A DNA stretch of 64,000 nucleotides, taken from assembly GCA_950295325.1 (NCBI GenBank), contig OX485803.1, positions 51,351,554 through 51,415,553 of the forward strand, given 5' to 3'. Under the pieces are notes generated by a model. The model saw only the letters and a list, made by a program, of their open reading frames with translations, did no database searches and was not told where the DNA came from. The stretch is from Polytrichum commune. Lineage: Eukaryota > Streptophyta > Polytrichopsida > Polytrichales > Polytrichaceae. Below are positions 1 to 10,704 of this stretch, one piece after another. The first letter of the stretch is position 1. Each line of letters starts with the position of its first letter. The translations under genes were made by a program, and so were the position numbers.

Positions 1-14
1 TAAACCACAACACT

Positions 15-824
15 ATGCTATTAACACAACACTATACCCGAAAACAACACCAACATTTTACTAACATCCTCAATACAAACTTCAACCACGAACAAATGAG
101 AGACACCAGATATATCCTCCCACCACAAACCATACCCTTATGCCACATACACATCAACGAATGTAACCCAGAGGACGATATTGCAAGCACAGAGTATACT
201 ATCCAAACCCAACATGACACTGCACACATCTACGACAACACCGGACGCCACTTAATTACCATCCCGAAAACAAGATTAAACTGGCAGTGGGACCAATATC
301 ACTCAGCACTAAACACACCATACAACCTAGAACCACCCACTCAATCATTCGAAACAAAAGTAACATGGCTATACCAAAGGTATAAATACAAAACCCCCAA
401 AAATGACCCTCTTAAATTCTCCCAATACACACTCCCAAATGCCATCCTTGAAAACTTCATAAACACATTCGAAATAACACACTCATATTTCTCGTCACCA
501 GTAACATGCCCCACTACACTCAGACAATTCCACTCCCCATTTCCTAGGGATGCAATATTTGGATCAACTGGAAAGGCATTCCAACATAAATGGCATGGAA
601 ATGGCTATGCACATCCACACACGAATACCGAAACTCAACAAGCCCTCCACTGGGCCCGCCTCGCAGCCGAAAATGATTCCAACTCTGTCACAATACTAGT
701 AATGCCAGACGAAAATTGGTATCACAATCCTAACCCCCATAATGGACCCTTCCCAAACTCACATATCATAACTCACTTCAAAGCCGACACCATCACATAC
801 GAAGAACCAACAATTCCCCCATAA
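15..824 (+). pseudogene. LINE polyprotein segment with methyltransferase-like region
   Basis: An open stretch of 269 codons, part of the LINE polyprotein; the first ATG is probably internal. Residues about 165-240 resemble the core of Dam/PCIF1-type adenine methyltransferases. There is a run with PFPRDAIFGSTGKAF, then W-H-G-N-G-Y-A-H-P-H where such enzymes carry an NPPF/NPPY motif, then a helix rich in A/L (QQALHWARLAAEND), a hydrophobic strand (VTILVMPD) and NWYH. The catalytic Asn-Pro-Pro is replaced by Ala-His-Pro-His, so if the fold is right the domain may be inactive or may bind a different substrate. The domain call is inference from motif spacing only. The stop at 822-824 looks secondary, because a similar reading frame continues behind it (LRTES, then HAIQIICIHH). 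Confidence 0.5.
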
Positions 825-1286
825 CTACGTACAGAATCTAGAACAGAAACCCACGCTATACAAATAATATGCATACATCACAAAAACACACCCATAGGAA
901 CAGATACCTTTACCCAACAAATGAATGATACTGCCAACACACTACAGATCCCTGAAATGGTATGTCAAATTGCTCCACCAACACCACCATACACACCAGT
1001 AAACCGCAATAAAAAAATGGGCCAAACTCACCTATCCACCTCCACCTACCCCGCCAACCACACAAATACCAACCAACCTATGGAACATCAACCCGATACA
1101 ATGCCTACCGCTTAAATACCCGCCTCAATTCTGCTATTACATGGACGGGTCATTCAAAAACAACCAAAACAAATAAACAATGGACAATGGAGACGGGAAA
1201 AAACTGGCTACGGCATTTACAACCCTTTCAAAAATCTAAAAATTACAGAAAGGCTACCAGGACTACAAAATATTCTCCGAGCAGAA
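825..1286 (+). pseudogene. LINE polyprotein, linker and start of RNase H (frameshifted)
   Basis: This stretch joins the methyltransferase-like segment to RNase H. The first half continues in the frame of the upstream segment. A frameshift in the A-run near 1010 moves the frame to a proline-rich linker (KLTYPPPPTPPTT) and then to YYMDGSF at 1135-1152, which holds the first RNase H aspartate (codon 1144-1146). A second shift near 1166-1180 leads to GYGIYNPF and LRAE, whose Glu (1284-1286) is the second catalytic acid of RNase H. The frames are read by eye, and the exact shift points could differ by several bases. Confidence 0.65.
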
Positions 1287-2144
1287 ATGATGGCCATACA
1301 TCACACTCTACAACTCCTCACCACAACATACCGAAATGAGCCAGCATACATATTCACAGATTGCCTAAACATACTATATCTCTTAAACACACAAATCAAA
1401 CACCCCACCAGCCATAACAATCACCCAAACAAAATAATCCTAGAAAGCATGCTTAGAATGTTAACATCCCGAACACAAATAACCACACTACATAAAATCA
1501 AGGCTCACACAAACATAGGAGGAAATGACCAAGCAAATATACTAGCCAAACAAGGATGTGAACTAGACCACAAAGATGCTACACTCCCATATGAACACGC
1601 ACACCCCACACCATACTACCTACAAAAAGACTGGTGGCACTCCATGCAAGAAACACCTAACAAAGGCCCCATTAGACACCTCAGCAAACATATCCTCAAA
1701 CAAGACAATGAACATAACTTAGCTACAATAGTAAATCAAACGCATCAATTACACAAATGGCTGGACAATGATGACATAGATAAAACATTATCAAATGACT
1801 TTTGGACGAATCCTAACGTCACAGATAAACAAAAAACATGCTTAGTAAAATTCAGAACCGGTCAATATATGGGCCATGCTCGAAAACAACTCTTTTTTGG
1901 AAGAGAAGCCTTCCCATCAAGAACATGCCCCATATGCAATTCGACAAATGCCGATACATGGCTACATGTACTACTTAAATGCAAGCAACAACATATCCAT
2001 GCACTAATCACTAAAAGGCATAATAAAGCGGTATGGGAAATACGTAAACTCATCGTCTCAAACCGTACATCAAGGCACTACACATTAATGAATGCAGGAA
2101 TACATAATGACCAACCGCAAGAAAATACAGTCCCATCATGGCTA
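1287..2144 (+). pseudogene. LINE RNase H domain and CCHC zinc knuckle
   Basis: This segment degrades RNA in RNA:DNA hybrids in intact LINEs. It continues the RNase H fold after the catalytic Glu just upstream: FTDC supplies the third acid (Asp25 counted from 1287), KAHTNIGGND supplies the conserved His74 and the last Asp81. About 130 residues later comes a knuckle of the form C-x2-C-x9-H-x4-C (Cys214, Cys217, His227, Cys232), as found just before the restriction-like endonuclease in R2-like elements. The frame runs until a DNA transposon interrupts it after the Leu codon at 2142-2144. The last residues of the open frame beyond 2144 are encoded by the transposon's terminal repeat, not by the LINE. 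Confidence 0.75.
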
Positions 2145-3296
2145 CCGTACGTTAAGGGCAGCTTCGGCACAAATTAATTCTAAAAATAGATGCCAAAAAT
2201 TTTGGAAAATTATTGACATTTTTTGCCGAATATAAAATTAATTAATTTTCAAAATTGCCGAAAAGTAAGAAATTTTAACTTCTCACTAGAATTTTACTTA
2301 CACTGGAAGCATATATGAATTTTGAAGGAGAGAAGCTGCTCCTTTTGTAATCAAGCTCACTTACATTAGTCCACAAAGAATATGGGTTAAGAAAGACTCT
2401 AAGTGAGGCTTTTCAAATGTGTTGTACACAATTTTTTGGAGTCCAATTGAGCATAGAAGATGAAGTTTTATAGAATTTTGTCCAACTAACAAAAGTTGAG
2501 AAATCAAGTAATCTTCCACCTCCAACAAGTTTTGTGTCAAAATAAGTCTTTATGCGAAAGATATGGACAAAACATTCCAGCCGTGTAAAGATCAAAACAT
2601 TAAAATGCGTTCATAACAGTTTTTCAGAGCTCATTTGTGCATAGAAGATCAACATTTTTGGAATTTTGTTGCTCTAAGAAAAGTTTAGATTTCAAGTAAT
2701 CTTCCACCTCCAACAAGTTTTGTGTCAAAATAAGTCTTTATGTGAAAGATATGGACAAAACATTGCAGCCGTGTAAAGATCAAAAAATTAAAATGCGTTC
2801 ATAACAGTTTTTCGGAGCTCATTTGTGCATAGAAGATCAACTTTTTTGGAATTTTGTTTCTCTAAGAAAAGTTTAGAAATCAAGTAATCTTTCACCTCCA
2901 ACAAATTTTATGTCATTTGAAGACTCTATGCAAAAGTTATGCGTGTTATAAAAATGAAGTCTAACTAGGTGCTTCACCTCAAACTTTACATATCCCATAT
3001 GCATTGTTGAACACAACTCCACTCTACTTGTATAAAGCACAGAGCATTCTCAACTCTTCACAAAGTTGTGAAAGATTTATATCTTTTGTAAAACTCTTCA
3101 CACAAATTGTGAAATCGTGAATGAACATCCTTGTTTACTGTTAGATAATAACTTCTTGGATGTATGCCGAAATTGCATTATTAAACTATTTAAAATGCCG
3201 AAATTTTTAGTAATTTTTTTTTTGCCGCCGAACACTGTTTTTTTACTTTTAATAATTATTCGGCAAGAGAGCGCCGAAGCTGCCCTTAACGTACGG
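2145..3296 (+). mobile_element. DNA transposon, TA target duplication, inserted in the LINE
   Basis: A 1,152-bp element bounded by near-perfect terminal inverted repeats of about 24 bp that begin CCGTACGTTAAGGGCAGC. TA is duplicated at 2143-2144 and 3297-3298. Removing the element plus one TA restores the LINE frame (Trp-Leu then Leu-Pro-Cys-Thr-Cys), which independently fixes the boundaries. Both subterminal regions carry repeated TGCCGAA or its complement, as expected for transposase binding sites. No transposase frame is visible, so it is non-autonomous. A TA duplication fits Tc1/mariner-like or some other TA-targeting families; I do not assign the superfamily. Confidence 0.8.
2434..2958. 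repeat. 188-bp tandem repeat, about 2.8 copies
   Basis: Inside the DNA transposon a unit of about 188 bp is repeated. The landmark CAAGTAATCTTYCACCTCCAA occurs at 2505, 2693 and 2881. The first two units share long identical stretches, while the third diverges after the landmark. It is not coding. Confidence 0.85.
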
Positions 3297-3298
3297 TA

Positions 3299-3757
3299 CT
3301 CCCATGTACATGTAACTCCCAAAGATGTCACTGCAACGCTCGGCTCAAACCCGACATACTATGCATCTTAGGCCACCCATATGACCACCCACCCCCATAA
3401 ACCCCCACACCCGATATCACCATACAGTTCATAGAATTCACATACTGCAACGACATATTCGCCACTGAAACCTTAGACAAAAAAATTATGAAATACCAAC
3501 CACTCATAAACAACATCACCACAAAAGGTTGGAAGGTGGCCCCACTCATGGTACTAGCTGCGGGAGCAAGAGGCACAACATATATCCCCTCAATGAAAAA
3601 CTTGGAATCAACATTTACACTCCCTATCACGAAAATCAAAAACACGTTTAAACAAATTAATATAATTGCTACACAATATGCGCACTCCATACTTATACAT
3701 GAACGAAGGCTAGAAAACCGACAAACTATTAATGATCTCCAAGACCCCCATAATTAA
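3299..3757 (+). pseudogene. LINE restriction-like endonuclease domain (RLE)
   Basis: This is the C-terminal nuclease that nicks the target DNA in R2-like LINEs. After the inserted transposon the frame resumes at 3299 with C-T-C, C-H-C, then ARLKPDIL (the PD motif), FIEFTYCND (acid plus hydrophobic strand) and later K-x2-K-Y. GWKVAPLMVLAAGARG and a helical tail follow, ending in a stop at 3755-3757. The order PD ... E ... K-x2-(K/R)-Y, followed by P-x-x-x-x-x-GARG, is the pattern of the LINE restriction-like endonuclease. A TAA at 3399-3401 interrupts the frame without changing it. The second copy at 22.5 kb has the same block, which supports its being coding in origin. Confidence 0.75.
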
Positions 3758-4002
3758 ACTTCCCCACCTAAAGCAAATTCCCCCCCCCCCCCCTCTCCCA
3801 CCAAAAATCCCAAACAAGAACCACATATAACTCACTAGCTACCGAAAGTCAACATTGATTACTAAATATAGTGTCTACGTCTTGAAAGGGGCGAAGTAGT
3901 TTTACATCTAAAGCTAATGTTGTAAGGCTTGGCCTAGGATGTTCTACGAACATACACTTTATTCACTCCGGCCTCCTCCGGAGGCCGGAGTTCTTCTTCT
4001 TG
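3758..4002 (+). other. LINE 3' UTR with terminal hairpin and TTC tail
   Basis: The 3' UTR follows the stop codon and contains a C-tract near 3781. It ends in a perfect GC hairpin (arm CTCCGGCCTCC at 3966-3976, 3-base loop, complementary arm 3980-3990) and then a short TTC repeat. A GC-rich 3' end with a microsatellite tail is typical of LINE termini that are recognised by the element's own reverse transcriptase. The copy at 22.5 kb ends with a related GGCCGGAG and a TATC tail. Confidence 0.65.

Positions 4003-7141: not shown

Positions 7142-10704
<3,563 letters not shown>

Follow-up and report, generated by a model that had tools for sequence, protein, structure and literature searches.

What is a methyltransferase-like domain doing inside a plant retrotransposon, and does it still methylate? 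The question is raised by 64,000 nucleotides (nt) of the Polytrichum commune genome (assembly GCA_950295325.1, contig OX485803.1, positions 51,351,554 to 51,415,553), called the window throughout, which open on the forward strand with the 3' part of a decayed long interspersed nuclear element (LINE); copies of this element were sought in the 408-Mb assembly. An earlier note on this DNA had pointed to a block of Dam/PCIF1 type lying upstream of the RNase H of the LINE. Sequence homology identifies this block as a domain of the type of PCIF1, a cap-specific adenosine N6-methyltransferase, set within the second open reading frame (ORF2) of the element. Our reading, to which we give a probability of roughly 0.5, is that a LINE with an apurinic/apyrimidinic endonuclease (APE), a reverse transcriptase (RT), an RNase H and a tail resembling a restriction-like endonuclease (RLE) carries a PCIF1-type domain that is non-canonical and has been kept as a binding module.

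Identity of the methyltransferase-like domain

The domain occupies positions 3 to 821 of the forward strand, after the RT and before the RNase H. When window 3-824 was compared with Pfam, the family PCIF1_WW (PF12237) was matched with 41 bits against a cut-off of 31.1 (E = 1.9e-10; residues 110-235, window 330-707). Despite its Pfam name, PF12237 covers the catalytic core of PCIF1, and in agreement with this the block aligns with PCIF1 chains of the PDB in their catalytic region. The same family exceeded its cut-off in two near-intact copies of the element, L035 (47 bits, E = 2.8e-12) and L036 (41.7 bits), as well as in all 150 copies scored out of 697 first-look candidates in the genome, and none of 14 control genomes was positive.

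Searches against solved structures led to the same family. With phmmer and E-values up to 5, the block matched two PDB sequences, both of them PCIF1 (6irx, E = 0.0014, with 0.021 for the best stretch alone; 6irv, E = 0.044), and profiles built from 25 and 30 copies placed PCIF1 at the top (E = 0.0017 and 1.2e-4, respectively), the other matches being to prefoldin (E = 0.019-0.038). The phmmer alignment pairs FSSPVTC..QFHSPFPRDAIFGSTG with PCIF1 FASPLNC..QFCSAFPDIDGFFGSRG, and GNGYAHPHTNTET with GSFEANPPFCEEL. In the window, the FSSPVTCPTTLRQFHSPFP stretch (489-545, forward strand) aligns with PCIF1 FASPLNC..QFCSAFP, and FGSTG (558-572, forward strand) stands at the position of PCIF1 FGSRG. Across an alignment of 30 copies the FSSPVTC-type stretch and FGS.G are largely kept, and the F, S, S, T and C of the former are invariant in 30/30. 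We take the FSSPVTCPTTLRQFHSPFP stretch, from its place in the alignment, to be the probable counterpart of the PCIF1 active-site loop, reported as F479-P494 (PMC10544176).

An AlphaFold2 model of the domain was made from copy L012, which belongs to the same subfamily as the window copy, using a more varied alignment of 30 sequences (mean predicted local distance difference test, pLDDT, 63.9; predicted template-modelling score, pTM, 0.49). All six PDB matches of this model in Foldseek at E <= 0.001 were PCIF1 (best E = 3.4e-7), and the next was the rRNA adenine methyltransferase RlmJ (E = 0.019); the result supports membership of the PCIF1 family and does not extend to the detailed geometry. 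Five viral models were found by structure search at E = 0.001 or better, with a PCIF1-named protein of Tetraselmis virus 1 first and one of Hokovirus third; two were unnamed, and phage DNA N6-adenine methyltransferases came fourth (within E = 0.001) and sixth. Thus profile search bore out the relation to methyltransferases proposed in the earlier note, and structure prediction leaned the same way. The note's suggestion of a DNA methyltransferase found no support in the PDB results, since among solved structures the RNA-cap enzyme PCIF1 comes nearest, although phage DNA methyltransferases do appear among the viral models.

Other collections added little on the domain. In PHROGs the block hit a single family, of unknown function (E = 0.16), the other domains matching RNase H and RT families; PADLOC returned no match, and NCBIfam gave only sub-cut-off matches with L035. 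In the 2846- and 2857-residue frames of L035 and L036, Pfam showed no WW domain at E-values up to 1.

That the resemblance to PCIF1 arose by chance is barely credible. The composition of the element is indeed odd, rich in A and C and extreme in having G at 5-7% of third positions, which is what such an accident would call for; yet the Pfam E-values of 1.9e-10 to 2.8e-12 lie above the curated cut-off, the control genomes were negative and the structure-based search finds PCIF1 as well. We reject chance resemblance on these scores, the controls and the agreement of family in Foldseek.

Replacement of the catalytic motif

The A-N-P-P-F of PCIF1 aligns with A-H-P-H-T in the window copy, where Y-A-H-P-H (606-620, forward strand) takes the position of PCIF1 E-A-N-P-P(F). 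The catalytic NPPF has therefore become HPHT; the earlier note had read the change as NPPF to AHPH, one residue out of register. To follow the motif among copies, an in-frame expression (the S-x-x-[VI]TC stretch together with the Ala before the motif) was applied to 48 distinct copies, duplicate views having been dropped, and was matched by all but L005. Among the 47 matching copies, 42 of which came from PF12237 matches and five, the window copy included, from DNA similarity to the window, the motif was AHPH in 45 and AHPP in two. Y-A-H-P was constant throughout, with the His encoded by CAC in 24 copies and by CAT in 23.

A genome-wide DNA pattern for K-W-x-G-x-G-Y-A-any-P, leaving free only the Asn place and the positions marked x, gave 414 exact sites against none in the reversed control. 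At the Asn place there was His in 404/414 and Asn or Asp in a single site (an Asn); the other nine sites carry something else, which is Tyr in two among the sites listed. The sole Asn site lies in a stop-ridden copy and reads ANPH, not NPPF. The replacement of NPPF by HP[HP], as HPH(T/N), is thus near-fixed, and it is held while the codons drift.

In PCIF1 the catalytic loop is reported as N553-C557, and N553 and F556 mutants are inactive and serve as the inactive form of the human enzyme (PMC10544176). Drosophila PCIF1 is reported to carry F to H in its NPPF, and N6,2'-O-dimethyladenosine (m6Am) is described as undetected in the fly; it is also undetected in bees, where the change is only a mild F to Y (PMC9479742). 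The LINE domain and PCIF1/CAPAM (PF12237; PDB 6IRV, 6IRW, 6IRX, 6IRY, 6IRZ, 6IS0) have in common the family, FASP..C, FGS.G, the order of blocks and the best fold match, but the LINE domain has HP[HP] for NPPF, had no WW domain found and sits inside a LINE polyprotein. Like Drosophila PCIF1, it is a PCIF1 relative with an evolutionarily kept His in the catalytic loop; the fly protein, however, is a host gene in which, in the account available, only the F position is reported as changed, whereas the LINE domain has N to H too. Because the N and F required in PCIF1 are gone, canonical N6-adenine methylation would no longer be carried out. By analogy with PCIF1, the likeliest reading is that this activity has been lost or strongly changed and that the pocket has been kept for binding.

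Rather unlikely, in our view, is an active methyltransferase working with a non-canonical HPH loop, whose target would be the cDNA of the element or, in its own RNA, the cap-proximal adenosine, so that the element is marked or protected. Such an enzyme would fit the largely kept FSSPVTC-type stretch and FGS.G, the constancy of YAHP in 47 copies amid synonymous codon change and a core as conserved as the RNase H (see below), and methyltransferases are known from retrotransposons, as cytosine DNA methyltransferases (DNMTs) and as the Dam-like enzymes of DIRS elements (PMC5890265). Against it, both positions reported as necessary in PCIF1, N553 and F556 (PMC10544176), are changed here, and the F to H change of the fly accompanies the reported absence of m6Am (PMC9479742).

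Architecture of the complete element

Near-intact copies give the full order of the polyprotein, namely a 2A-like peptide, APE, RT, the PCIF1-like domain, RNase H, a CCHC knuckle and the RLE-like tail, in open frames of 2846 (L035), 2857 (L036) and 2663 (L037) residues. In L035 Pfam lists, in this order, Exo_endo_phos (25.5 bits, cut-off 24.5), RVT_1 (E = 3.7e-27), PCIF1_WW (E = 2.8e-12) and RNase_H (E = 1.4e-14). RVT_1, PCIF1_WW and RNase_H (E = 3.4e-12) were also matched in L036, where Exo_endo_phos was not listed up to E = 1, and this family stayed below the cut-off in L011 (17.7 bits). The motifs QETK, CGDFN and SDH are present in both L035 and L036, and further along the frame come YADD, YYTDGSF, a C-x2-C-x9-H-x4-C knuckle, a second Cys cluster and, in the tail of near-intact copies, [KR]PD, IEFTY and KY. 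We take QETK/CGDFN/SDH, YADD, YYTDGSF and PD/IEFTY/KY to mark the APE, RT, RNase H and RLE, respectively. The nearest PDB match of the RT is the R2 protein (E = 7.4e-33). The RT sought upstream of the RNase H was found upstream of the PCIF1-type block as well, both at the window locus (L009) and in the Pfam order of L035 and L036.

The tail of the window copy runs from TCNSQRCHCNARLKPDILC at 3308 through IEFTY, K, KY and GW up to 3757. All five aligned tails have the E, K, KY and GW unchanged, and PD is likewise constant in the four tails that reach it, two near-identical copies among them. A tail profile found no R2 chain in the PDB, its sole match being irrelevant (E = 2); phmmer gave none for the L035 tail, and Pfam was silent on it. 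At the level of motifs, then, the tail reads like a restriction-like endonuclease, with no profile match. The earlier claim of an RNase H and a restriction-like endonuclease on one LINE consequently stands in full for the RNase H, confirmed by Pfam, and at motif level for the endonuclease.

As in this family, a single Dualen/RandI element carries APE, RT and RNase H together with an RLE-like tail, and these LINEs are described as combining an APE with a PD-(D/E)XK-type endonuclease (PMC3636483, PMC4640811). The layout is that described for Dualen, a likeness of domain layout drawn from published descriptions; the descriptions available to us are without a methyltransferase, whereas here a PCIF1-type domain lies between the RT and the RNase H.

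Several further features of the element were observed. The 2A-like peptide upstream of the APE is canonical in L035 (GDIETNPGP, residue 505), and degenerate elsewhere, as GDIEPHPGP in L010, L011 and L012 and as GDIKPNPGP in L036. In the 5' part of the element, an upstream open frame of 395 residues lies on the reverse strand of L010 at 54-1238 and occurs also in L009, L011 and L012; it gave no Pfam match that passed its cut-off. A and C abound on the sense strand of the LINE and G is very scarce, with third-position G of 5.2% (L035:1-8538) and 6.8% (L036:2-8572), against an overall G of 18.9% in the window beyond 6000.

Mobility and selection

Over 8759 aligned bases, L036 on contig C4 and L037 on contig C1 show 28 differences, and this identity of 99.7% indicates that the family moved recently. 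Among 30 aligned copies the domain forms four groups at 70% identity and six at 75%, subfamilies being 56-58% identical over it. Synonymous divergence (dS) was saturated, and for this reason we quote the ratio of the proportions of non-synonymous and synonymous sites that differ (pN/pS). Between L035 and L036 this ratio was 0.28 in the core of the PCIF1-type domain (pN 0.210, pS 0.744) and 0.34 over the whole domain (0.258, 0.752), compared with 0.29 in the RNase H (0.198, 0.676), 0.28 in the tail from the CCHC knuckle to the RLE (0.198, 0.705), 0.17 in the RT (0.123, 0.742) and 0.75 in the N-terminal stretch (0.529, 0.709); against L011, the RNase H gave 0.32. From these values the domain is under purifying selection of a strength like that on the RNase H and less than that on the RT, and the best reading is that the PCIF1 fold is maintained by selection.

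A domain captured once and since left to decay as a neutral relic is very improbable. Stops and frame breaks do occur in several copies, including that of the window, as decay would predict; however, the lesions of the window copy are not confined to this domain, near-intact copies have it in open frame, the conservation of its core is much like that of the RNase H when subfamilies with 56-58% identity over it are compared, and codon changes in the motif are only synonymous in 47 copies. On the open domain, its RNase H-like conservation and these synonymous-only changes, the neutral explanation was set aside.

A possible role for the domain

If the PCIF1-type domain has been kept for binding, what it holds within the ORF2 complex may be the RNA of the element itself, by the capped 5' end or by the cap-proximal adenosine. 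Holding this end would favour the use of the element's own full-length, capped RNA as template, and would likewise help the cDNA to reach completion at its 5' end in target-primed reverse transcription (TPRT). A position in ORF2 between the RT and the RNase H, and a parent family acting on the cap-proximal adenosine, would suit such a 5'-end-holding module. We place this role, drawn by analogy, below lost methylation in certainty and give it about even odds at best. More tentatively, and with chances somewhat under even, we propose that a LINE captured a cap-adenosine methyltransferase domain whose loop changed to a kept HPH, and that it serves either as a reader of the cap or 5' end for TPRT or as a methyltransferase of new specificity.

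Several observations weigh against a non-canonical binding module in a Dualen-like LINE. The bee case makes the analogy with the fly a weak one, and the putative binding of cap or RNA is argued from the parent family; the strongly kept HPH could also mean altered catalysis instead of none. On the structural side, an earlier AlphaFold2 model with a shallower alignment was poor (pLDDT 45.2), and the L012 model, itself of medium confidence, superposes on PCIF1 with TM scores of 0.34-0.39 and a root-mean-square deviation of about 7 Å. The core pN/pS was 0.33 and 0.34 against L011 and L012, slightly above the value against L036, and the motif-level assignment of the tail counts here too. Searches of IMG/VR (with the single domain, the domain alignment and the RT alignment), of GTDB genomes and of phage records found no relative beyond this genome.

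The module might instead act on the host, as a pseudo-enzyme that competes with cap-modifying enzymes or sequesters a partner, with the result that the RNA or cDNA of the element escapes silencing. Drosophila PCIF1, reported as catalytically dead yet functional, would be the precedent, but we hold this explanation to be quite unlikely. Without a WW domain in L035 and L036, docking on the phosphorylated polymerase tail becomes improbable, and a host target lacks support, since no host PCIF1 was found by an EANPPF-type pattern: over the genome it gave nine sites, against three in the reversed control, and the surroundings of each were unlike PCIF1, although intron-split or varied motifs would escape this search.

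The copy in the window and its neighbours

The window copy is a decayed LINE with the Dualen-like layout, covering 1 to 4001 on the forward strand except for 2143-3298. Five relatives elsewhere in the genome are 95-98% identical to it over 1-2145 and 95-97% over 3297-3757. Its 5' portion, with most of the RT, sits upstream of the window at locus L009, with about 100 residues missing, and alignment of the 3' ends of copies places the end of the LINE at about 4001. Stops lie at 822-824, 1113-1115 and 3398-3400, and a frame break falls between about 1010 and 1160.

The RNase H domain, decayed here, lies at 1194-1559 (forward strand; Pfam RNase_H, E = 1.9e-10, 41.5 bits against a cut-off of 25.8 from window 1116-2177). 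It is followed by the CCHC knuckle C-x2-C-x9-H-x4-C, CPICNSTNADTWLHVLLKC, at 1926-1982 (forward strand), read from the letters and identical in motif in L035 and L036; both had been named in the earlier note and both hold. The Cys cluster and the RLE-like tail, of PD-(D/E)xK type at motif level, take up 3308-3757 on the forward strand, the in-frame stop at 3398-3400 included.

The 3' untranslated region (UTR), at 3758-4001 on the forward strand and delimited by the 3'-end alignment, ends in a hairpin (CTCCGGCCTCC..GGAGGCCGGAG) and then TTC repeats. The hairpin at the LINE 3' end is GC-rich, and Rfam gave no family at the gathering threshold in five related loci. A block AGTGTCTA..CCT..GAAAGGGG..AGTAGT and the terminal hairpin are common to window 3758-4001, L010-L014, L035 and L036, across subfamilies, whereas the simple-repeat tails vary, being TTC or, in L036, TCTA. 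The shared block and hairpin are possibly an RNA signal read by the RT.

The earlier note had assigned the whole of 1 to 3757 to the LINE, which in fact starts upstream of the window, runs to about 4001 and is interrupted by a foreign element. This element, of 1156 bp at 2143-3298 (assigned to neither strand), has perfect terminal inverted repeats (TIRs) of 26 bp and a TA or TAC target; the insertion-free site was seen in the LINE relatives L010, L012 and L014, the search string having missed the site in L011 and L013. At least 34 other genomic copies share 97-100% identity with it, a minimum, as the scoring covered 40 of 1942 candidates. Its interior holds a 188-bp unit three times, the second and third copies being 85% and 69% identical to the first, and no long open frame. 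It is apparently a young family of non-autonomous DNA transposons. Farther along the window, exon-like pieces of an alcohol dehydrogenase gene lie at 8099-8524 and 8905-9384 (ADH_N, E = 4.6e-9); the second piece is weak, below the cut-off.

Significance for retrotransposon biology

Among the best-ranked of many literature entries, consulted at the level of titles and abstracts, no report of PCIF1 on a LINE or other retroelement was found, and prior mention cannot be excluded. Captured methyltransferases are described for SymbioLINE-Dnmt, SymbioDIRS-Dnmt3, Dam-like DIRS and KnitGypsy-Dnmt3 retrotransposons, with purifying selection in the DNMT cases (PMC5890265). In the published descriptions at hand these carry cytosine DNMTs (in the LINE, mostly in an upstream ORF) or Dam-like enzymes, whereas the Polytrichum family has a PCIF1-type domain, inside ORF2 and with an altered motif. 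The altered yet conserved catalytic loop is the most surprising part of the finding.

An RNA-modification enzyme family is hereby added to those captured by retrotransposons, and a single genome holds more than 400 naturally occurring copies in which the catalytic loop is altered. How a LINE selects the full-length RNA of its own kind, and how a new copy is completed at its 5' end, are open problems. The presence, between the RT and the RNase H, of a family that acts on the cap and first nucleotide makes a direct test of template choice and 5' completion in LINEs possible.

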